DNA from: Vulcanimicrobiota bacterium
GTDB taxonomy: Bacteria; Vulcanimicrobiota; Vulcanimicrobiia; Vulcanimicrobiales; Vulcanimicrobiaceae
Direction: 5' to 3'
Assembly (NCBI GenBank): GCA_028287565.1
Contig: JAQBPK010000256.1
Location: 1 to 36,647 of the forward strand
DNA: 36,647 nt
Part shown: positions 1-32,659 of the stretch, piece by piece
Position numbering within the stretch: the first letter of the stretch is position 1
How the letters are laid out: every line of letters begins with the position of its first letter
Notes under the pieces: generated by a model
Told to the model about the DNA's origin: nothing
The model's database searches: none
The model's input: the letters and a program-made list of their open reading frames with translations, nothing else
Translations under genes and position numbers: made by a program

Positions 1-3000
1 GTCGTCGATCGCGGCCGCGCGCGCGCGCATCACCGAGCCGGCTTGCCGCAGCAGCATGCGCGCCGCGTCCGCGCGGCCGCACGCGAGCTCGACCTGCGCC
101 GCGGTCCACAGCCACTCCGACGGCTGCGGCGCGAGCCGGGGATTCGCGTCGTACAGCGCGAGCAGTTCGCGCGCCGCATGCGCGGCTGATTCGAGGTCGC
201 CCGCGCGCACGTGTGCGAGCGCGAGTGCGCAGAGGTTGTCGCCGAGCCGCGGCGTCGCGCCAGCGGGGCGCCGTAATTCGACCGCAGCTGTGAGATGCGC
301 GATCGCGTCGGCGTACGCGCCCAAGCCGCATTCCGCGGCGCCCAGCGTGCCGAGCGCGGCCGATTCGAGATGCTGCGCGCGGATCTCGCGCGCGAGTGCG
401 AGCGCCGATTCGGCGCACTCCTTGGCCTCGTGCAGCTCGCCGCGCAGCCGGCGGCAGTAGCTCGCGTCGATGCGCTCGACGCACGCGACGAAGCGGAAGC
501 CGAGCTCCTCGGCGATCTCGCGCGCTCGCGCGTAGAAGTCGAGCGCGCGGTCGAGCAGCCCGAGCTCGGTGTGGAACAACCCGAGGTCGACGAAGATGCT
601 CGCAAGCCCCACGCGGTGGCCGATGCGCTCGTAGAGCTCGAGCGCGCGCAGGTAGTACGACTCCGCGTCCGCGACCCGGAACGTGTACACCAAGCCGTTC
701 GCCATTGTGTGAAGCGCGAGCGCCTCGCCTTCGCGGTCGCCGGTGTTGCGGCTGACGTCGTGCGCTTCCGCGGCGAAGCGCGACATCGCGGCGTAGTCCT
801 GCTGCGCGAGCGCCGCGCGGGAGAACGCGATCAGCGTCCGCACGAGCGCGCCTTGGTCGCCGTCGGCTTGCGCGGCGGCGCGCACGTCGTCCAGCGCGCG
901 GTACGCTTCGTCGAGCCGGCCTTCGTAGATGTACGTGTCGGCGACCGCGAGGCGAGCGTTCGCGTGCGCGCCGCGGTCGCCGGTGCGCTCGGTGAGCTCG
1001 ATCAATTCCGCGAACGCCGCGCGCGCGCCGCCGAAATCGTTGATGCCGCGCCGGTAGCGCGCCTCGGCCGCGAGCCACGCGGCGTGGAAGCGGACGTCGC
1101 CCGAGCGGCGTGCGCGGCGCCGCAGCAGTGCTATCAGCACCCGCTCGAGCCGCCGCTCGCCGGTGACGTTCGCCAGCCCGATGCGCCGGTCGAGGACGGT
1201 GCAGAGCGCGTCCTCGTCATCGATCGAGCGCGCGAGCATGGTGAGCTCGGCCGCGATCTGTGCTTGCTGCGCGCGGTCTCCGTCGGCGGCGGCGATGCGT
1301 TCGCGGAGCAGCAGCGCGTCGAAGCGCACGCGGCGCGACGTCGCGAGCTCTAGCGCGCGCGAAAGATACCGCGCGGCGTCCTCGTTGCCGTAGACGCCGA
1401 GCGCGCGCCGCGCCGCGGCGAGATACCGCTCAGCCGCGAGCTCGGGCTCGCCGCCGCGATCCCAGTGCAGCGCGAGCTCGGCCGCGACGTCGTCCCCGCA
1501 GTCATCGTAGAGCTGCGTCATGACGTGCGCGATGCGGCGATGGCGGCGCGCGCGTGCCGCGGGCGCAGCGCTTTCGTACACCAGCGCTTGGATCAAGTGA
1601 TGCGTGAACGCGTAGTCGAAGCCGCCGCGCGCGCCGTAGTCGCCCACGATGCGCCGGTCCGTCAGTTCGCCGAGCGCGTCAAGAACGGTCGCTTCGAGCC
1701 AGCCCGTCGTCTCGCGCAGCAGGTCGACGTCGAACGCGCGCCCGATCACGGCGGCGACGTCCGCCAGCGATCGGGCGCGCTCGCCCAGGCGCGCGAGCCG
1801 CGCGGCGAGCACGCCGCGCACGGGCTGTGGCACGTCGCCGTAAGGACGATCCGGGTTTGCGGCTTCGCCGGGCACGTCATCGAGCGACCAGCGCCCGTCT
1901 TCGGTGCGCAACATCCCCGTCTCGGACAGATCGCGCAAGATCTCTTCGAGGAAGAACGGGTTGCCGTCGCTGCGCTGGTGCAGCCGGCGCGCGACTGCTG
2001 CCGGATCGTTCGAGTCGCCGAGCGCGCGCACGAGCTCTTCCACATGCCGCGCGTCCAGCCGCGACAGCGCGATGTGCGTCGCGCCGCCTTCGCGCTCGAG
2101 CCGCCTGCGCAACGCGCGCAGCCGGTGGTTCGCGTCGAGCTCGTCCTCGCGATACGTCGCGATCACGAGCACGCGGCCGCGCGCCGACCCGCGCGCGAGA
2201 TGCTCTAGCAGATCGAGCGTCGCGGCGCCGGCCCAGTGCACGTCTTCGATCGCGAGCACGACGGGACGCCGCGTGCCGATCGCTTCCCACACGTTCGCGC
2301 ACGCTTCGAAGAGCCGCACGCGCTCGCGCGCCGGATCGACAGCGGGCAACGGCGGTAGATCGCGCGCGTGCTCCGCGAGCGACGGCGCGAGCGCGGCGAG
2401 CGCGCTGAGCCAGAGCGGATCGATCGTCACCGTCGCGGCGAGCGGCGCGACGACGCGCAGCAGATCGACGAACGGCTGATACGGCACGGTCTCCGGAAAC
2501 GTGCTCGCGGCGCTGTATGCCTGCGCGCCGCGCGCCTCGCACGCCGTCGCGAACTCGCGCACGAGGCGCGTCTTGCCGATGCCCGCTTCGCCGCCGATGA
2601 GAACGAGGCCGCCATGTCCCGCCGCCATCGCGTCGAAGCGCTCGCGGAGCGCCGCGAGCTCCGCGGCGCGCCCGGCGAACGGCAGCGCGGCGATCGTTCG
2701 CCCCGTGATTCCGCCTGCGGTGCGCAGCTGCTGTGCCGTTCGCTGTGCGGAGTCGTGCAAGGCGGCACTACCGTCATGTGCGGACGCGTTTGCGGATGTG
2801 TGTGCGGATGTGAGTGCGGCTGCGCTCGCGGCGTCGTCGTTCGCGGGCGTGACGTCGCTCGCGATCGAGGCGTACGCGGCCTGCGTCTCCGCCATCGGCT
2901 CCGTGCCGAGCTCTTCGCGCAGCGCTGCTGCAAAACGCTCGTACTCCGCAAGCGCGCCGGCGCGGTCGCCGGCTTCATAGCGCAGGCGGATGAGCGTGCG

Positions 3001-3570
3001 CAGCACGTCGTCACGCCACGGATCGTCCACGAGCAGCCGCTGCGCGGCCGGAATCGCGGTCGCATAGTCGCGCGCCGCGCTCGCGCTCCCGACAAGCGCG
3101 CCGAGCGACGTGCGGTACAGCGCGCGCAGCCGCTCGCGCTCGGGTTCCAGCCACTCGTCCCCCGTGTCGGCAAGGAGCTCGCCGGCATAAAGCGCGACCG
3201 CGTCGCCGAGACGCTGCGGCAGCGCCGCGAGCCGCTCGAACTCCGCGACGTCCAGCCACAGATCGCAGGCGGGATTCCACTGGAGCCCGCCGCCGCCGGC
3301 GAGCACCCACGGGCGCCCGTCCGCGGCGGGCGGAAGAAGCGCGTGAAGATAGTTGAGGTGGCGGCGCAGGTTCGCGCGCGCCTCGTCTTCCGGCTCGTCC
3401 GGCCAGAGCGCGTTCGCGACCGCGCGGCGCGGCACCGCGGCGTGGCGGTGCAAGAGCAGATACGCCAGCAGCGGCACGACCTTGGGCCGGCCGCCGGCGG
3501 TTAACGGGACGTCGCCGAGCCACAACCGCGGCCGCCCGAAGAGCTGGACCCGCAGCATGGAAACGAGCAT
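1..3570 (-). CDS. BTAD / AAA-ATPase / TPR transcriptional regulator (partial, C-terminus cut by window edge)
   Basis: Open for 1190 codons on the minus strand, running off the left edge. Residues ~5-95 resemble the winged-helix OmpR-type DNA-binding domain of SARP-like activators (start LRVQLFGRPRLWLGD; LLAYLLLHR; RRAVANALWPDEPEDEAR). Residues ~100-245 are a bacterial transcriptional activation domain (AAQRLLVDDPWRDDVLRTL, LREELGTEP). An AAA_16-type ATPase follows with Walker A GGEAGIGKTR near position 2590 and Walker B-like VVLAIEDVHWAG. The remainder is helical TPR-like repeats (ALELYERIGHRVGLASIFVD). Family knowledge: cytoplasmic regulators that sense a signal through the NTPase/TPR part. 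ATG 3570 is preferred because GGGGC lies just upstream; ATG 3558 (MLRVQLFG) is in frame but has no ribosome site. It diverges from the FAD oxidoreductase, which it may control. Target and ligand cannot be told. Confidence 0.88.
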   Translation of the reverse strand, partial: MLVSMLRVQLFGRPRLWLGDVPLTAGGRPKVVPLLAYLLLHRHAAVPRRAVANALWPDEPEDEARANLRRHLNYLHALLPPAADGRPWVLAGGGGLQWNPACDLWLDVAEFERLAALPQRLGDAVALYAGELLADTGDEWLEPERERLRALYRTSLGALVGSASAARDYATAIPAAQRLLVDDPWRDDVLRTLIRLRYEAGDRAGALAEYERFAAALREELGTEPMAETQAAYASIASDVTPANDDAASAAALTSAHTSANASAHDGSAALHDSAQRTAQQLRTAGGITGRTIAALPFAGRAAELAALRERFDAMAAGHGGLVLIGGEAGIGKTRLVREFATACEARGAQAYSAASTFPETVPYQPFVDLLRVVAPLAATVTIDPLWLSALAALAPSLAEHARDLPPLPAVDPARERVRLFEACANVWEAIGTRRPVVLAIEDVHWAGAATLDLLEHLARGSARGRVLVIATYREDELDANHRLRALRRRLEREGGATHIALSRLDARHVEELVRALGDSNDPAAVARRLHQRSDGNPFFLEEILRDLSETGMLRTEDGRWSLDDVPGEAANPDRPYGDVPQPVRGVLAARLARLGERARSLADVAAVIGRAFDVDLLRETTGWLEATVLDALGELTDRRIVGDYGARGGFDYAFTHHLIQALVYESAAPAARARRHRRIAHVMTQLYDDCGDDVAAELALHWDRGGEPELAAERYLAAARRALGVYGNEDAARYLSRALELATSRRVRFDALLLRERIAAADGDRAQQAQIAAELTMLARSIDDEDALCTVLDRRIGLANVTGERRLERVLIALLRRRARRSGDVRFHAAWLAAEARYRRGINDFGGARAAFAELIELTERTGDRGAHANARLAVADTYIYEGRLDEAYRALDDVRAAAQADGDQGALVRTLIAFSRAALAQQDYAAMSRFAAEAHDVSRNTGDREGEALALHTMANGLVYTFRVADAESYYLRALELYERIGHRVGLASIFVDLGLFHTELGLLDRALDFYARAREIAEELGFRFVACVERIDASYCRRLRGELHEAKECAESALALAREIRAQHLESAALGTLGAAECGLGAYADAIAHLTAAVELRRPAGATPRLGDNLCALALAHVRAGDLESAAHAARELLALYDANPRLAPQPSEWLWTAAQVELACGRADAARMLLRQAGSVMRARAAAIDD

Positions 3571-3653
3571 TGCCCCGCGGCACTCGGCTTCCCTGGCGAT
3601 CGTAAAGGCCTGTGACATACGAACGGCTGAAGACGCGCCGTTGGGATGATGCG

Positions 3654-24245: not shown

Positions 24246-25973
24246 ATGAGCGAGCATTTCGACGCCGTCGTGGTCGGTTCGGGATTCGGCGGTTCGGTGA
24301 CGACGCAGCGGCTCACCGGCGGCGGCCTGAGCGTGTGTCTTCTCGAACGCGGCAAATCGTACGGCCCCGGCGACTTCGCGCGCTCGCCCGCCGAGATGCG
24401 CGGCAACTTCTGGGACCCGCAGGACGACACGTACGGGCTCTTCGACATCTGGTCGTTCCGGTTCATGGAGGCCGTCGTGTCGGCGGGGCTCGGCGGCGGC
24501 TCGCTGATCTACGCCAACGTGCTGATCCGCAAGGACGAAAAGTGGTTCGTGCGCGACGGCTACCAGGGAACGGCGTACGAGTACTGGCCGATCACGCGCG
24601 AAATGCTCGACCCGCACTACGCCAAGGTCGAGCGCATGATGAACGGCCAGGTGTACCCGTTCGGGGATCCGCCGTACGACCGGACGCCCAAGACGCGCGC
24701 GATGCGCGACGCGGCGGAGCGGCTGGGGATCGGGATAACCGACCGCGACGCGATCGATTCGTCCGTGCCGCAGTGGTATCTGCCGCTGCTCGCCGTGACG
24801 TTCGCGAACGACGGCGAGAAGCCGATCCCCGGGCGCACGATCCGCGAAGCGATTCGCAACCTGCACGACCGTGACCGCCAGACGTGCCGGCTGTGCGGCG
24901 AGTGCGACATCGGCTGCAACTACGGCTCGAAGAACACGCTCGACTACACCTACCTCTCCGCCGCCAAGGCGCAGGGCGCCGAGATACGCACGCTCGCCGA
25001 AGTGAAGAAGATGCGCCCGCACCGCGGTGGTTACGAGGTGATCTACGCGGACCACCGCGAGGACGGGCGGCTGCGCACCGTCACGTGCGACAAGCTCGTG
25101 CTGGGCTGCGGAACGCTCGGAACGACATACCTGCTGCTGAAGAACCGCGCGGCGTTTCCCGCGATCAGCGAGCGGCTCGGCGACCGTTTCAGCGGCAACG
25201 GCGATCTGCTCTCGTTCGTGTTCGACTGCACCGAGGACGACCCGAGCACGGGAAAGACGCGCATCCGCCCGATCGACGGTTCGCACGGCCCGGTGATCAC
25301 GAGCACGTTCCGGATGCCGGACGACGCCGACGCGCCGGGCTCCGGGCGCGGCTTTTATTTGCAGGACGCCGGCTATCCCGGATTCGTCGACTGGCTCGTG
25401 GAGGTCGGCACCTCGGGCGAGAGCGGGATCAAGCGGATGGCGCGCTTCCTGCTCAACCGGCTCGTCGCGATGTGGAGCGACTCGCCCAAGTCGAGCATCG
25501 GCGGCGACATCATCGCGCTGCTGGGCGACACGCGCGTGTCGTCGTCGTCGATGCCGCTGCTCGGCATGGGACGCGATCAGCCCGACGGCCGGATGAGCCT
25601 GCGCAAGGACCGTTCGGGCGACGCCTGGCTCGCCGTCGACTGGCGCGACGCCGGCTCGAAGAAGTACATGAACCGCGTGATGCGGTTTTCCGCGGACATC
25701 GGCAAGGCGCTCGGCGGCACGTTCCTCGAGAACCCTGCAACGCAGATGCTGAACCGCACGGTCACGGTGCACCCGCTGGGCGGCTGCGTCACGTCGCGCA
25801 GCAGCGCTGAGGGCGTCGTCGACACGTGGGGGCGCGTCTGGGGCTACGACGAGCTCTACGTCGTGGACGGCTCCGCGATTCCGGGACCGGTCGGCGCGAA
25901 CCCGAGCTTGACGATCGCGGCGTTCGCCGACCGCTGCTCGGACGGGATCCTCGATCCGGCGCAGCGCGGTTAG
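24246..25973 (+). CDS. GMC-family oxidoreductase (cholesterol-oxidase-like) with four-Cys motif
   Basis: 575 aa. FAD-binding start VVVGSGFGGSVTTQRL, ribityl region GLGGGSLIYANV, and the C-terminal active site HPLGGCV followed by YVVDGSAIPGPVGANPSLTIAA. Residues 214-224 read CRLCGECDIGC, i.e. Cys at 214, 217, 220 and 224, a C-x2-C-x2-C-x3-C spacing like ferredoxin clusters; long-chain alcohol oxidases of this family have similar Cys-rich insertions. Expected to oxidise an alcohol or sterol hydroxyl with FAD. It lacks the C-terminal domain that here resides on the patatin encoded opposite. Diverges from the five-gene lipid operon and overlaps the end of the glycosidase gene by four bases, convergently. 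Confidence 0.92.
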   Translation: MSEHFDAVVVGSGFGGSVTTQRLTGGGLSVCLLERGKSYGPGDFARSPAEMRGNFWDPQDDTYGLFDIWSFRFMEAVVSAGLGGGSLIYANVLIRKDEKWFVRDGYQGTAYEYWPITREMLDPHYAKVERMMNGQVYPFGDPPYDRTPKTRAMRDAAERLGIGITDRDAIDSSVPQWYLPLLAVTFANDGEKPIPGRTIREAIRNLHDRDRQTCRLCGECDIGCNYGSKNTLDYTYLSAAKAQGAEIRTLAEVKKMRPHRGGYEVIYADHREDGRLRTVTCDKLVLGCGTLGTTYLLLKNRAAFPAISERLGDRFSGNGDLLSFVFDCTEDDPSTGKTRIRPIDGSHGPVITSTFRMPDDADAPGSGRGFYLQDAGYPGFVDWLVEVGTSGESGIKRMARFLLNRLVAMWSDSPKSSIGGDIIALLGDTRVSSSSMPLLGMGRDQPDGRMSLRKDRSGDAWLAVDWRDAGSKKYMNRVMRFSADIGKALGGTFLENPATQMLNRTVTVHPLGGCVTSRSSAEGVVDTWGRVWGYDELYVVDGSAIPGPVGANPSLTIAAFADRCSDGILDPAQRG

Positions 25974-28228
25974 TTCGCGCTGCGCCCCTGCACGATCTTG
26001 CGGTACGCGAGCGCGGCTTTGGTCTCGCAGCGCTTCAGCGTCGCGTCGTTGTCGAGGTCGATGTAGTAGAGCCCGAAGTTGCTGTTCTCGTCGAACTTCA
26101 GGCCCCACTCGCGGTTGGACGTGATCGCCCAGCACAGATAGCCGCCCACCGGGACGCCTTCGGCGCGCGCGCGCTGCACCTCGCTGACGTGGCGCTTGAG
26201 GTAGACGTCGCGCTTGACGCTGTCCGCGATGTCGACCGAACCGTTCTCGATCACGAACACGGGCTTGCCCGGGAACATCTTCGCGTGCTCGTGCAGCATC
26301 GCGCACAGCACCGCCGGCCACACCGGCGCGTTCGCGTACTTCTGCTCCGACGCGGCGAAGAGATGGCGAATGCGGTTGAAGCCGAGCGAGCTGATGCCCC
26401 AGTAGTAGTCGAGCCCGACGTAATCGAGCTTGCCTCTGCACTCCGGCGGGCACAAAACCGGCGCGAGCCGGCCGCTCAGCCCGAGATTCCACCAGTTCGT
26501 CGTGACGATCGTCGAGAAGACCGACACCACGCGCAGGATCGGATCCAGCAGCCGCCGCCACGACCGCACCGAGCTCATGCGCTCGCCGACGCTCACCTCC
26601 ACGAAGCGCACGGCGCGCGCATCGCCGCACACCTGCGCCGCGACGTACCGGGCGAGATCGGGTTCCAGCCCCGTGTAGTCGCCGTCCGGCGTTTTCGTGC
26701 ACAGGCCCACGATGCCGGGATGCACGGCCACCTTGAGAACCTTGCGCTTCTGCACCGCTTTGAGCGCGCTGGCGCCGTACGTCGGCGCCGCCGGCGTGTC
26801 GACGGGCGGCGCGTTCCGCGTTTCGCCGGACGCGTTTGCGCGCCGGCCGGTCTTGGGCGTCGCGAGCATCGCCGCCGGCGCACCGAGATGCGTCTGCACG
26901 GCGGCTTTCCACGGCGTCGAGTCGCCCGCGGGCTTCTCTTTGTACGCGCGAATCGCGACGTCGATCGCGTTGAGCAGGTCGCGGTTGCCGGGCGCGACGG
27001 CGGCGGCGTACGGCGCGTCGGTGTTCGCGATGGCGGTGAGCACGAGGCCGTCCGCCACGAACGGGCGCAGCACGACGTCGTCGTCGAGCACGAGCTCGAC
27101 ACGGCCGTCGCGCAGCTGCGCGACCGCGTCTGCCGTGCTCTCCGCGACGACGACCGCGGCGGCGGGAAAACGCGCGCGTGCTTCGTCGACGGCCGTCGTG
27201 TCGCGCGCCGCGGCGACGTGGCCGCGCCAGCCCTCGAACGCGCCGGCGGCGGGCGGCGCGCCGCGCGAGAGCAGCGCGAGGTGCGCGACGAAATACGCCT
27301 CCGAAAACTCGATGTCGTCGGTGCGGTCGAGCGTCAGCGTCAACTGCGCCATCACGACGTCCGCCTCGCCGGACTCGAGCAGCCGGCGTTCGGTGAGCTT
27401 GCGCGCCTGCTTCGCGAGGTCGTCCGCCGTGCGCACCTTCGTCGCGTTGCGGTCGACGAAGCGCTGAAGCCACGGCGGCAGCCCCAGCATCAGCGGGTTC
27501 GCTCCGATCTTAGGCTGCGGCCAAGCCGGGACGGCGGCCGCGTTGTCGCGGTGCACCGCGTGAATCGCGTCGTACGCGCGCGCGTTCGCGCGAAAGAGGT
27601 TCGGGATGAGCTGCGCGACCTTCCCGATCTGCTCGCCCGTGGTCGCGCCGATCTTCAAGCCCGGCGGCATGGGATACACGCGCGACCACCACGGCTTGAT
27701 GAACCCGTACACGAGCTGGTTCGGCTCGTTGAGCGTTACATAGTACGCGATCAAATCGCCGAGCCGCCGCGCGACCTCACGCGCGTACGCCTCGAACCAC
27801 ACCGGGAAGTCGCGATGCACCATCCCGCCGCGGTTTTCCACGTGGACCGGCCACGTGTTGTGGTGCAGCGTGACGAACGGTTCGAGATCGTTCTCGTGCA
27901 GTTTCACCAGCACGTCGCGGTAGTGCGCGAACGCCGCGTCGTCCCATACGCCGGGCTGCGGCTCCAGGCGCGCCCACGAGAGCGAGAGCCGGAACGCCGT
28001 GCAGCCGAGCCCTGCAGCGAGCGCCGCGTCCTCGCCGTAGCGGTTCCAAAAGTCGGTCGCCGCGCCGCGCAGCTGCAGCTGCCGCTTTTCTTCGTAGACG
28101 TCGCGGATGTCGCGGCCTTCCGGCGTGTAGGCTTCGCACTGATGGTCTGCCGTCGCGACGCCGAAGCGGAACGCGGGCGGCGCGGGAAACTGCGGATAGG
28201 TGCGCTTCGCCGAAAACAAAGGCCCCAT
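25970..28228 (-). CDS. GH1 glycosidase with an inserted, circularly permuted solute-binding-protein domain
   Basis: 752 aa; ordinary GH1 enzymes are about 450. Residues ~18-265 are the first half of a GH1 barrel (FRFGVATADHQCEAY, GCTAFRLSLSWARLEP, TLHHNTWP, acid/base Glu168 in TLNEPN). Residues ~553-745 are the second half (KLDYVGLDYYWG, nucleophile Glu661 in VIENGS, GYLCWAITSNREW). Between them, 280-430 reads as the rear of an SBP_bac_3 domain (LLESGEADVVMAQLTLT, IEFSEAYFV, LRDGRVELVLDD), and 495-552 reads as its front (VLKVAVHPGIVG, DGDYTGLEPDLARYVA, FVEVSVGERM). The front follows the rear, joined by a Pro/Ala linker (~450-490). No signal peptide, so probably cytoplasmic. Both catalytic Glu are kept, so it is plausibly active and gated by a small ligand. 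Confidence 0.85.
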   Translation of the reverse strand: MGPLFSAKRTYPQFPAPPAFRFGVATADHQCEAYTPEGRDIRDVYEEKRQLQLRGAATDFWNRYGEDAALAAGLGCTAFRLSLSWARLEPQPGVWDDAAFAHYRDVLVKLHENDLEPFVTLHHNTWPVHVENRGGMVHRDFPVWFEAYAREVARRLGDLIAYYVTLNEPNQLVYGFIKPWWSRVYPMPPGLKIGATTGEQIGKVAQLIPNLFRANARAYDAIHAVHRDNAAAVPAWPQPKIGANPLMLGLPPWLQRFVDRNATKVRTADDLAKQARKLTERRLLESGEADVVMAQLTLTLDRTDDIEFSEAYFVAHLALLSRGAPPAAGAFEGWRGHVAAARDTTAVDEARARFPAAAVVVAESTADAVAQLRDGRVELVLDDDVVLRPFVADGLVLTAIANTDAPYAAAVAPGNRDLLNAIDVAIRAYKEKPAGDSTPWKAAVQTHLGAPAAMLATPKTGRRANASGETRNAPPVDTPAAPTYGASALKAVQKRKVLKVAVHPGIVGLCTKTPDGDYTGLEPDLARYVAAQVCGDARAVRFVEVSVGERMSSVRSWRRLLDPILRVVSVFSTIVTTNWWNLGLSGRLAPVLCPPECRGKLDYVGLDYYWGISSLGFNRIRHLFAASEQKYANAPVWPAVLCAMLHEHAKMFPGKPVFVIENGSVDIADSVKRDVYLKRHVSEVQRARAEGVPVGGYLCWAITSNREWGLKFDENSNFGLYYIDLDNDATLKRCETKAALAYRKIVQGRSAN

Positions 28229-29448: not shown

Positions 29449-29484
29449 CACCAAGGCCCGCTTCACGGCGGGTCTTGGTGTTTT
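29449..29484 (+). terminator. Intrinsic terminator
   Basis: CACCAAGGCCCGC (29449-29461) pairs with GCGGGTCTTGGTG (29468-29480), 13 bp including one G-U, loop TTCACG, followed at once by TTTTCT. Clear rho-independent terminator for plus-strand transcription, 187 bases after the hydratase stop and 57 bases before the DUF5693 start. Confidence 0.88.
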
Positions 29485-29540
29485 CTAAGGCGCGCGCGGG
29501 CCGAGCGGTTCCGGCGCGTCCCCGGCGAACAGGCGGGCCC

Positions 29541-31541
29541 GTGACCTACCGCCGTCTCCTGCTCGCCGTCCTCGCGCTCGGTTTGCTCGCGTGTCTGTAC
29601 GTCGGCGTACGCCGCGAGCGGCACGAGCACCGCGCGAACCGCGTCGAGATCGTGATGGACGACGCGGACTTCCAGTCGCTCGCGCGTTCGTACGCATACG
29701 AGCAACGCGCTTTCCTCATCGAGCTGCGGCGGGCCGGACTCACCTCGCTCGCGGTCCAGGAAGAGCTGGGCGGCCAAATCTCGACGTCGCCGAGCGCGGC
29801 GCTCTACGCCGGCCCGGCACTGCTCGATCAGGCCAAGCTGACCGGCTTCCACGATCCGGTGTTCGCGCGGCTCGCCGTGCACGGCATCCGCAGCGACGAA
29901 GTGTATCTGGTCGCCTACGACCGCGACACCGCGGCGCGCTACACGCAGCAGCTCTCGCTGAAGTTCTCGCCGCGCGCGGTGCGCGTGCTGCGCCGCGCGG
30001 ATCCCACCGTCTTCGCGATCCGCACGCAAGCCGACTACTTCAGCTCGATCGGCCTCGGCCTGCCCGGCGAGCGAGTCGCGCTCGCGCGCGCGATGGCGCT
30101 GAAGCTGGTCCCGCGGCTTCAGAACGACGAGCGCTTCAAGGCGCCGGAGATCGGCCTCGCGCTGGACGAGGCGGTGCGCGGCCACGACGCGCACACCGTG
30201 ATCTTCTTCGGCTTGCGCAACCAGGTGCTCGGATTTCCGGACAGCATCGACGCGACGGCGAAGGCGATGCGCGCGGACAACGTCGACTTCGGAACGGTCG
30301 AGACGTACGACGTGAAGCAGAACCAAGCCGGCAGCGAAACGCTCGCGAAGGATCTGCCCGACCGCACCGTGCGCGTGCAGGCGATCTCCAAGACCGAACA
30401 GGACAAGCTGCGGCCCGAGGACATCATCCAGCGCTACGACCTCGGCGTGCGCGAGCGCAACGTGCGCGTCGTGTACCTGCGGCCGTTCGCGCACCAGTGG
30501 GCCGGGCGCTCGATCGAGGCGACGAACGTCGAGATCGTGCGCCGGATCGCGGCGAACGTGCGCGCGGCGGGGCTGCGCGTCGGCACCGCATCGCCGTTCG
30601 AGCGCTTCGTGACGCGGCCGTGGGAGATCGTGCTGGCGTCGTTAGCGGTCCCGGCGGTGCTGCTGCTGTTGCTGGCGGAGTTCGGGATCGGCGACCGGCG
30701 CTGGCTGATCGCGTTCGTCGCCGCCGACGTCCTGCTGGTGCTGGCCGGGTTCGCGGTGCACCACGACATGGCGGTGCGCAAGCTGCTCGCCCTCGCGGGC
30801 GCCATCGCGTTTCCGGTCGCCGGGTTCGCGGCGATCGCGCCCGCGTTCACCGCTCCGCGCGCGCCGTCGACGGGCGCCGCGATCCTCGACGGCATTCGGG
30901 CGCTCGTCATCGCGACGCTGGTGACGCTGTGCGGCGCGCTCGTGGTCGTCGGCCTGCTTTCGACGCCGCTGACGATGCTCGAGGTCGACCGCTTCAGCGG
31001 CGTCAAGCTGGTCCTCGCCGCGCCGCCGGTGCTGTGCCTGCTGCTGTACCTGTTCACGCGGCGCTGGGGCTCGCAGCTCACGGTGAAACAGCTCGCCGCC
31101 TCGCCGGTCACGGTGGTCGCGCTCGTGCTGGGCGCCGTGCTCCTGGCCGTAGGATATCTCGTCCTCACGCGCAGCGGTAACCAGAGCGACATCGCGCCGT
31201 CGTCGCTCGAGCTGGCGCTGCGCTCGCACCTCACGACGCTCTTGCAGGTGCGCCCGCGCTTCAAGGAGTTCGTGGTCGGCTTCCCGGCGCTGATGCTGGC
31301 CGCGGCACTCATGCCCGGACACCGCGCGCGCTGGGGCTGGCTGCTGGCGCTCGCGATCGGCGTCGGCTTGGGCGACGTCGTCGACACGTTCTCGCACCTC
31401 CACACCGCGCTCGCCGTCTCGCTGCTGCGCCTGGCGAACGGGGCGATCCTCGGCATCATCATCGGTGCGGTCGCGATCGCGGTGTACCGGGCCGCCGTCG
31501 GGCGCGGAATTCCTTGGCGGGCGCGCAAGCAAACGGCGTGA
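29541..31541 (+). CDS. DUF5693-type multi-pass membrane protein, CsaB partner
   Basis: 666 aa. One N-terminal helix (LLLAVLALGLLACLYVGV), an extracytoplasmic domain of ~340 residues (NRVEIVMDDADFQSLAR, LTSLAVQEELGG, VRVVYLRPF), then about eight membrane helices (IVLASLAVPAVLLLLLAEF, VLALVLGA-type segments) to the C-terminus. The layout and its place directly before csaB match the DUF5693 family, often found beside csaB in Terrabacteria-type genomes. Role is not established; export or assembly of the pyruvylated wall polymer is a reasonable inference. GTG 29541 puts the helix at the N-terminus. It overlaps csaB by four bases. Confidence 0.82.
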   Translation: MTYRRLLLAVLALGLLACLYVGVRRERHEHRANRVEIVMDDADFQSLARSYAYEQRAFLIELRRAGLTSLAVQEELGGQISTSPSAALYAGPALLDQAKLTGFHDPVFARLAVHGIRSDEVYLVAYDRDTAARYTQQLSLKFSPRAVRVLRRADPTVFAIRTQADYFSSIGLGLPGERVALARAMALKLVPRLQNDERFKAPEIGLALDEAVRGHDAHTVIFFGLRNQVLGFPDSIDATAKAMRADNVDFGTVETYDVKQNQAGSETLAKDLPDRTVRVQAISKTEQDKLRPEDIIQRYDLGVRERNVRVVYLRPFAHQWAGRSIEATNVEIVRRIAANVRAAGLRVGTASPFERFVTRPWEIVLASLAVPAVLLLLLAEFGIGDRRWLIAFVAADVLLVLAGFAVHHDMAVRKLLALAGAIAFPVAGFAAIAPAFTAPRAPSTGAAILDGIRALVIATLVTLCGALVVVGLLSTPLTMLEVDRFSGVKLVLAAPPVLCLLLYLFTRRWGSQLTVKQLAASPVTVVALVLGAVLLAVGYLVLTRSGNQSDIAPSSLELALRSHLTTLLQVRPRFKEFVVGFPALMLAAALMPGHRARWGWLLALAIGVGLGDVVDTFSHLHTALAVSLLRLANGAILGIIIGAVAIAVYRAAVGRGIPWRARKQTA

Positions 31542-32659
31542 GCCCGCGTTTCCTGCTCAGTGGCTACTACGGTTTCGGAAATCTCGGCGACGAGGCGCTG
31601 TTGCAGGTGATCGTCGAGCAGCTGCGCGCGCGCTGGCCGGCGTGCGCGGTCGACGTGCTCAGCGCCGACCCGGCGGCGACCGCGCGCACCTACGGCGTCG
31701 AGGCGACGCCGCGGATGGACCTGGGCCGCGTCCGCGCGGCCATCGAGCGGGCGGACGTCGTTCTGTCGGGCGGCGGCGGGCTGCTGCAGAACGTCACCAG
31801 CCTCAAGAGCCTCATCTATTACGCCGGCGTCATTCGCAGCGCGATCGCCGCCGGGAAGCCGGCGATGGTGTTCGCGCAGTCGGTCGGGCCGCTCGATTTC
31901 TGGGGCCGCGCGGTGGTGCGCAACTTCTGCAAGGGCATCGCCGGCGCGACGGTGCGCGACGAGCGCTCGCGCGCGCTGCTGTCGTCGCTGCTGCCCGGCG
32001 TGCGCGTCGAGCGCGGCGCCGATCCCGTGTTCCTGTTCGAGCCCGGCGGCGAACAGCTGGATCTGGCGGCCGAAGGCCTGGCCGGAGACGACGCGCCGCT
32101 GGTCGTCGTGTCCGTCCGCAAGTGGCAGGGTGCGGATACGACGGCGCACACGCTCGCGCACGCGATCGACCGGCTCGCGGGCAGGCACGGGGCGCGCGTC
32201 GCGTTCCTTCCGCTGGGCGGCCCGCCCGATGCGGAGGTATCGACCACGATCATCCGGCGCTGCGCCTCGACGCCGGTGCTGCTTCCCGACTATCCGCTCA
32301 ATCAAGCCGCGCAGGTCATCGGCCGCGCGTCGCTCGTGATCGGAATGCGGTTGCACGCGCTCATCATCGCGGCGCGTCTGGGCGTGCCGTTCCTCGCGCT
32401 GCCGTACGATCCCAAGGTCACGGCGCTGCTCGAGGACCTGCGCTACCCGGCCCGGCCGCTGTTCATGCCCGGCGAGCCCGCGCCGCCGCCGAGCGAGATC
32501 GCGGCGCGCATCGACGACGCGTGGAAGCGCCGTGCCGAGCTCGCCGCACACTTGCAGAGCGTGCGACCGGAGATCGAGCGGCTCGCCGAGCGCAACTTCG
32601 ACGTCTTGAACGAACTCGTGACGCGAACCATGCACAAGGCGGCAGGCACGGAGCGCTGA
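31538..32659 (+). CDS. csaB: CsaB polysaccharide pyruvyltransferase
   Basis: 373 aa. Starts FLLSGYYGFGNLGDEALLQ, the hallmark of CsaB. Further marks are VLSGGGGLLQNVTSLKSL, FAQSVGPL, GATVRDERS and a C-terminal IGMRLHALIIAARLGVPFLALPYDPKV. It transfers pyruvate from phosphoenolpyruvate to a secondary wall polysaccharide, making the ketal bound by SLH domains. GTG 31538 is preferred: it shares GTGA with the upstream stop and gives the family's typical N-terminus; TTG 31514 is in frame eight codons earlier. In a diderm this suggests SLH proteins that tie the outer membrane to the wall. Confidence 0.93.
   Translation: MSPRFLLSGYYGFGNLGDEALLQVIVEQLRARWPACAVDVLSADPAATARTYGVEATPRMDLGRVRAAIERADVVLSGGGGLLQNVTSLKSLIYYAGVIRSAIAAGKPAMVFAQSVGPLDFWGRAVVRNFCKGIAGATVRDERSRALLSSLLPGVRVERGADPVFLFEPGGEQLDLAAEGLAGDDAPLVVVSVRKWQGADTTAHTLAHAIDRLAGRHGARVAFLPLGGPPDAEVSTTIIRRCASTPVLLPDYPLNQAAQVIGRASLVIGMRLHALIIAARLGVPFLALPYDPKVTALLEDLRYPARPLFMPGEPAPPPSEIAARIDDAWKRRAELAAHLQSVRPEIERLAERNFDVLNELVTRTMHKAAGTER

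Follow-up and report, generated by a model that had tools for sequence, protein, structure and literature searches.

A GH1 glycosidase barrel interrupted by a circularly permuted solute-binding domain, a candidate ligand-gated enzyme from Vulcanimicrobiota

The stretch of DNA analyzed here, referred to as the window, comprises 36,647 nucleotides of contig JAQBPK010000256.1 from a Vulcanimicrobiota bacterium (assembly GCA_028287565.1) and contains, on its minus strand, a gene for a 752-residue protein in which a GH1 glycosidase barrel is interrupted by a solute-binding-protein (SBP) domain of the SBP_bac_3 family. As judged from profile comparisons the inserted domain is circularly permuted, and proteins of the same architecture, here termed GH1-SBP, occur in two phyla. 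We read the window protein as a cytosolic GH1 beta-glycosidase with the permuted domain placed between strand beta5 and helix alpha5 of the barrel and with an activity that may be gated by a ligand, and to this reading as a whole we assign a probability of about 0.4. An earlier, sequence-only reading of the window had already singled out this gene; what became of its individual claims is given below with the results that bear on them.

Architecture of the protein

Pfam recognizes both GH1 (PF00232, 146.4 bits against a cut-off of 22.6) and SBP_bac_3 (PF00497, 42.9 bits against a cut-off of 26.4) in the window protein, each in two stretches. Relatives were brought together in an alignment of 52 proteins, encoded by 44 of the 53 matching genes from the phylum of the window, called its own phylum in what follows, and by 8 genes from Verrucomicrobiota. 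Residue conservation was counted over 50 rows, with two broken rows omitted; these counted rows comprise 42 from the own phylum, 33 of them with both lobes of the SBP domain and 9 with a single lobe, and 8 from Verrucomicrobiota. The gene and its parts are as follows, in window positions:

25970-28228, minus strand: GH1-SBP gene, a single open frame of 752 residues without internal stop
27443..28180, minus strand: N-terminal half of the GH1 barrel, residues 17-262, up to beta5 (Pfam GH1 at 17-228; profile-profile comparison with plain GH1)
27725..27727, minus strand: Glu168, predicted GH1 acid/base (TLNEPN), from the translation; retained in 49 of 50 counted rows
27383..27442, minus strand: connecting segment, residues 263-282, from barrel strand beta5 to the SBP domain (family alignment)
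27269..27382, minus strand: SBP lobe 1 part b, residues 283-320, first here and natively after the N-terminal part (Pfam from profile position 53; hhalign)
27323..27325, minus strand: Arg302, conserved in own-phylum rows
27017..27268, minus strand: SBP lobe 2, residues 321-404, missing in nine relatives; its boundaries are those suggested by the stretch that these nine lack
27080..27082, minus strand: Asp383, conserved in most two-lobe rows
26921..27016, minus strand: return of the SBP chain to lobe 1, residues 405-436, native C-terminal part (hhalign)
26774..26920, minus strand: linker, residues 437-485, from the native C-terminus to the native N-terminus, with the highest ratio of non-synonymous to synonymous substitution rates (dN/dS) among the segments
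26561..26773, minus strand: SBP lobe 1 part a, residues 486-556, the native N-terminal part, last here (Pfam profile 1-55; hhalign, E 1.1e-17)
25973..26560, minus strand: C-terminal half of the GH1 barrel, residues 557-752, from alpha5 to the end (Pfam; hhalign)
26246..26248, minus strand: Glu661, predicted GH1 nucleophile (VIENG), retained in 50 of 50 counted rows

A barrel in two halves with Glu168 and Glu661 as its catalytic pair had been described in the sequence-only reading, and Pfam, the translation and the alignment agree with that description. In an hhalign comparison with 11 plain GH1 proteins both halves align (probability 100, E 6.5e-57), while most of the insert is left unmatched between the strand with the motif KIGANPL and the strand with LDYVGLDYYWG. 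This comparison and Pfam place the insertion inside the barrel, as had been supposed. The proposed non-GH1 insert between the halves stands as well, with its limits corrected to about 263-560 when the connecting helices are included. By the order of the structural elements the insertion point should be the beta5-alpha5 connection, which belongs to the catalytic face of a beta/alpha barrel. For the enzyme TnBgl1A, residues at the end of beta5 are described in passages of the published account as lining the +1 and +2 subsites (PMC3056771). An initial placement of the insert in GH1 'loop B' was dropped, as the relevant passages place that loop at about residues 213-220, soon after the acid/base E194 (PMC7817009).

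The residues Q30, H123, N167, W700, E707 and W708 are present in all 50 counted rows and, by our own reading of the motifs, correspond to the set of -1 subsite residues named for TnBgl1A in passages of the same account (PMC3056771). As a member of GH1 the protein would be a retaining beta-glycosidase. The GC content at third codon positions is 0.89-0.94 and alike across all parts of the gene, so that composition gives no mark of the insert as a recent arrival.

Circular permutation of the SBP domain

Within the insert, Pfam places profile positions 53 onward first and positions 1-55 last. Residues 283-432, the better-scoring stretch, correspond to positions 53-119 of SBP_bac_3, and residues 498-555 to positions 1-55. 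When the pieces were searched alone, 270-485 matched positions 53-119 with 31 bits and 486-556 matched positions 1-55 with 20 bits (E 6e-4), a score that by itself is under the cut-off. As a native comparison set we used 12 ordinary SBPs, 11 of them from relatives and one (L003) from the window's own genome, downstream of which permease-like frames are seen by eye. With the family alignment, hhalign matched residues 272-440 to positions 91-260 of the native SBPs (probability 99.8, E 1.6e-29) and residues 486-560 to positions 34-109 (probability 99.1, E 1.1e-17); the whole insert as query returned the same two alignments, in swapped order. With probabilities and E-values of this kind in swapped order, the permutation is not a matter of chance.

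As far as these profiles can tell, the insert is one complete SBP_bac_3 domain with a single cut near profile position 54 and its halves exchanged. The permuted order, originally proposed from motifs, is therefore borne out by the Pfam pieces and by hhalign against native SBPs, and the latter comparison aligned the insert in swapped order, not in native order and not as an unrelated domain. A Pro/Ala linker had also been said to bridge the native termini. The bridging holds, but the richness in Pro and Ala is a feature of the window protein that does not extend to all relatives.

In terms of the profile, the C-terminal junction lies at about position 55 and the N-terminal one at about 53. Seen on a native SBP, the cut is situated in what we take to be the helix after the second strand of lobe 1, so that the two new ends come from a single helix of this lobe. 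This bears on the mechanism originally suggested, in which ligand closure would strain or align the barrel through the two junctions. The domain is indeed joined at both ends inside the barrel; however, with the junctions in a single helix (profile 53-55) closure of lobe 2 need not alter the distance between them or shift one against the other. This weakens the suggestion to a degree that makes strain on the barrel very improbable, and with both junctions in lobe 1 a flap-like movement of lobe 2 is the likelier event.

Distribution and origin

A scan of genome contigs with exact peptide patterns, an insensitive method, returned three full-length relatives, all from Verrucomicrobiota (Roseibacillus persicicus, R. 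ishigakijimensis and one metagenome-assembled genome), with 35-36% identity to the window protein. In the own phylum, 53 of 149 genomes, including that of the window, match a four-row profile at 1e-30, and the insert was shown in at least 51 of the 149; of the two left out, G139 gave a match confined to the N-terminal GH1 part, in a frame of 456 residues, and G127 one confined to the N-terminal half. None of the 10 other genomes of the window's genus gave a match, several of them being incomplete. Among 387 genomes sampled from Verrucomicrobiota the full-length protein is present in at least 7, two of which had been starting points of the search, and in the other 46 genomes with a match this was confined to model positions 1-239, as it would be for a plain GH1 protein. 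Note that the candidates scored per genome numbered at most 7 in the own phylum and 2 in Verrucomicrobiota, so that all carrier counts are lower bounds. No relative of the GH1-SBP protein was found on viral contigs, and none of 72,556 plasmid records had a place covering 80% of the query.

The homologues of the same architecture that the sequence-only reading had proposed to look for were found in two phyla, and the order of segments is identical in all 52 aligned rows. The genome of the window is a fragmented draft of 399 contigs, which might have pointed to an artefact of assembly or gene calling, but this common order, which extends to named Roseibacillus records, and the frame without internal stop refute such an explanation. 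In a tree that includes 11 plain GH1 rows, all insert-bearing proteins are on one side of a branch with support 100/99, and within this sample the topology fits a single origin. Note that the window protein, which has a long branch, takes different positions in the barrel tree and the insert tree. In seven of eight chosen genomes no GH1 gene other than the interrupted one is present, and G011 has another; the window's own genome and G040 also carry another GH1 gene.

Conservation of the lobes and proposed ligand gating

In the reading proposed here, the two junctions would fasten lobe 1 to the barrel next to the aglycone side of the active site, and lobe 2 would form a hinged flap. Under ligand gating, relatives with a single lobe would be expected to lack regulation or to be regulated less strongly. 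An allosteric control of activity by a ligand is plausible from this arrangement, and the question is to what extent the conservation of the domain agrees with it.

Amino-acid SBPs anchor their ligand through a Thr or Ser and an Arg in lobe 1, an Asp in lobe 2 and an acidic or aromatic residue after beta1. Thr299, which we take to occupy the classical amino-acid anchor position, and Arg302, presumably at the position of the arginine that holds the ligand carboxylate, are found in all 33 two-lobe rows of the own phylum. Residue 383, in our assignment the position of the aspartate that contacts the ligand ammonium group, is an Asp in 29 of these 33 rows and in all 8 from Verrucomicrobiota, making 37 of 41 two-lobe rows overall.

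By sequence, the window protein has two lobes, as do 41 of the 50 counted rows (33 of 42 in the own phylum, 8 of 8 in Verrucomicrobiota), and 9 of the 50 have one. In the nine one-lobe rows (G037, G038, G011, G123, G124, G125, G126, G027 and G128) the stretch between the hinge strands, which corresponds to lobe 2, is gone, and the short joins that replace it differ. On the best tree the history of the two states takes four changes, of which at least two are forced by well-supported branches. These relatives lend support to a two-lobed anatomy, and the alignment shows that lobe 1 can persist without lobe 2. In one of them (G125, locus L081) the acid/base Glu168 is replaced by Ala and part of lobe 1a is masked; this protein is perhaps catalytically impaired.

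Across the 33 own-phylum two-lobe rows the barrel halves are the best conserved, with mean identities of 0.74 and 0.67, ahead of the three pieces of lobe 1 (0.55, 0.51 and 0.54); lobe 2 follows with 0.39, and the linker comes last with 0.36. For dN/dS, 14 close pairs were pooled, or 12 in the case of lobe 2, and some of these pairs share a row. The ratio is lowest in the barrel (0.08-0.09), rises to 0.12-0.20 in lobe 1 and to 0.27 in lobe 2, and is highest in the linker (0.34). As estimated from these ratios, purifying selection acts on all parts and is weaker on lobe 2 than on lobe 1; with a ratio of 0.27, neutral drift of lobe 2 was set aside.

A number of observations weigh against ligand gating. 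Among the folded segments lobe 2 is the least conserved, and the one-lobe relatives speak against a need for the two-lobed trap in every member. Arg302 is replaced in all 8 Verrucomicrobiota rows, which have an Asp at position 505, and own-phylum rows mostly have HPGxxGLC in the segment that follows native beta1, the last residue of which is Phe in all 12 ordinary SBPs (YDAPPF in 6 of them). These two changes disfavor an ordinary amino acid as the ligand, and that it is a carboxylate is a guess. In addition, Arg302 is retained in 8 of the 9 rows that lack lobe 2 and may serve another purpose. It could either have a different role in these proteins or take part in ligand binding by an isolated lobe, an ability that passages of one study describe for some type II SBPs (PMC10601554). 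A separate weak point concerns the identity of the domain in Verrucomicrobiota. When three proteins of this phylum were scanned with Pfam SBP_bac_3, one passed with 30.0 bits, one was under the cut-off with 22.2 bits and one was unreported, and the early part of the profile had no match in any of the three; the case for their being relatives is made by the full-length alignment and by NCBIfam SBP models.

The structure models were poor. With AlphaFold2 and four aligned rows, the mean predicted local distance difference test (pLDDT) score was 45 for the complete chain and 51 when the insert was modeled by itself, and with values this low the models were used for no geometry. The best 50 rows of a Foldseek search with the insert model were amino-acid SBPs and related sensor domains throughout, with low overall TM-scores, mostly of 0.2-0.35. 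At rank 49 the isolated domain 2 of ArgBP was matched with E 2e-3, TMt 0.67 and a root-mean-square deviation of 3.3, no more than a hint that the fold is lobe-like.

Several of these points can also be read as marks of a structural addition, with lobe 1 forming a wall of the active site or a dimer surface, ligand binding lost or vestigial and lobe 2 a dispensable remnant. The nine one-lobe relatives and their four changes, the low identity of lobe 2 and the replacement of Arg302 in Verrucomicrobiota would all be accommodated. However, a remnant would not be expected to remain under purifying selection, to be present in most own-phylum and all Verrucomicrobiota counted rows or to retain Asp383 to the extent observed, and we consider such a scaffold somewhat unlikely. 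Ligand gating in its fullest form, that of a natural ligand-gated glycosidase whose free lobe gates the aglycone side and whose sister lineages have repeatedly lost the gate lobe, is put forward tentatively, as an account that could well prove wrong.

Gene neighborhood and possible substrates

The neighboring genes referred to are:

24246..25973 of the window, plus strand: GMC oxidoreductase, cholesterol-oxidase-like (below the family cut-off), tail to tail with the GH1 gene
L070:3489-4241 and L096:7056-7835: examples of the short-chain dehydrogenase/reductase (SDR) gene, divergent from the GH1-SBP gene
L070:6043-6885 and four more one-lobe loci: DapA/aldolase-like gene, on the same strand as the GH1 gene

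None of ten neighboring genes scanned encodes a transporter and, judged by eye, the window protein has no hydrophobic leader or signal peptide, both of which fit the earlier statement that no transporter is involved. The end of the GMC gene overlaps the GH1 stop by four bases on the opposite strand. Among the loci fetched, a GMC oxidoreductase gene is adjacent in the window and in two relatives only, co-directionally downstream in G120 and beside one GH1-SBP copy in G072; a family-wide link was set aside, and the enzyme is a possible partner of GH1-SBP. G072 holds two GH1-SBP copies (L046, L086), one by a GMC oxidoreductase gene and the other by an SDR gene.

In 33 of 52 own-phylum genomes the SDR and GH1-SBP genes are arranged head to head, at most 150 bp apart as measured between match edges. 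Close homologues of this SDR (E <=1e-60) occur in 39 of the 117 genomes of the class, 37 of the 39 being among the 52 (hypergeometric P 5e-16, with shared ancestry ignored); none was found at 1e-60 in the window's own genome. Among NCBIfam models it scores best with a general SDR model and with 'glucose 1-dehydrogenase', in neither case reaching the cut-off. The DapA/aldolase-like gene follows 6-35 bases downstream in five of the 38 loci looked at, all five being one-lobe loci of one genus. With SDR and GMC oxidoreductases as neighbors, the glycosidase may plausibly be followed by an oxidation step in which these enzymes act on the sugar or aglycone that it sets free, and the gating ligand may be a product of that pathway.

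The same neighbors could, however, be viewed without a separate regulatory ligand, if the permuted SBP domain were a substrate-recognition module that binds the aglycone or the far end of a substrate such as a glycosylated amino or carboxylic acid. The insert follows beta5 and would adjoin the aglycone subsites, and the possible oxidoreductase partners could act on the aglycone released. The re-ordered insert matches many amino-acid SBPs, including a deoxyfructosyl-amino-acid SBP (5l9o, 5lom; E 5e-5), although others score better than this one, and the fact that lobe 2 can be lost argues against a role in recognizing the substrate. We regard a recognition module as unlikely and retain ligand gating as the preferred interpretation. 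A chain labeled MltF (6hqh) scored exactly like SocA in this comparison, may itself be SocA and was not counted as kinship with MltF.

Two further loci of the window were noted. At 29475-32659 a DUF5693 gene overlaps a gene for the polysaccharide pyruvyl transferase CsaB (above the NCBIfam cut-off), and the two are perhaps a cell-surface anchoring pair. At 1-3618, on the minus strand, a frame running off the window edge resembles TOMM-system kinase/cyclase proteins and SARP-type regulators, below the cut-offs in both cases.

Comparison with known systems

Engineers of protein switches routinely combine circular permutation with domain insertion, and to our knowledge a permuted Venus-flytrap domain inside an intact catalytic barrel has so far been known only from protein engineering. 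Our literature searches returned no description of the GH1-SBP architecture and no paper that pairs 'SBP_bac_3' with 'Glyco_hydro_1'. Evolution seems to have taken the same route as the engineers and to have retained the outcome in two phyla. The one-lobe versions represent natural deletion controls, which would be ungated if gating is true, and with this family one can test directly if insertions of this type originate as switches or as additions to the structure. Its members are also starting points for ligand-controlled glycosidases.

With GH1 beta-glucosidases (PF00232; NCBIfam TIGR03356, below the cut-off) the window protein shares the barrel halves, the catalytic pair and the -1 residues, but it differs in that its barrel is interrupted after beta5 by about 290 residues. 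The SBPs of amino-acid ABC transporters are alike in both lobes, in the TxxR motif and the lobe-2 Asp that most own-phylum two-lobe rows possess, and in the strong profile match between the insert and ordinary SBPs of the same phylum. The insert differs from them in being permuted and contained in an enzyme, with no visible signal peptide and no transporter among the neighbors scanned.

A further relative in concept is MltF, whose N-terminal regulatory domain is SBP-like. According to passages of a study on this enzyme, the domain opens the active site when occupied by a muropeptide, so that MltF is likewise a glycan-cleaving enzyme with a ligand-binding domain, responsive in its case to muropeptides (PMC10746161). 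MltF differs in that its domain is N-terminal and arranged in tandem, neither permuted nor inserted, and in having another catalytic fold and a location in the envelope. In the sensor R-ncp-iGluSnFR1, as described in passages of PMC6335823, a circularly permuted GltI is combined with a non-permuted red fluorescent protein (RFP) to give a response to glutamate, and here too a permuted amino-acid SBP is joined via its new ends to an intact partner. This construct differs in being man-made and in having a fluorescent protein, not an enzyme, as the partner. It is the analogy with the permuted GltI-RFP fusion and with MltF that leads us to favor ligand gating for GH1-SBP. The same passages mention engineered xylanase-XBP and beta-lactamase-MBP switches, insertion fusions in which the ligand alters enzyme activity (PMC6335823). 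In these the enzyme was inserted into the binding protein, whereas GH1-SBP has the reverse arrangement and is natural.

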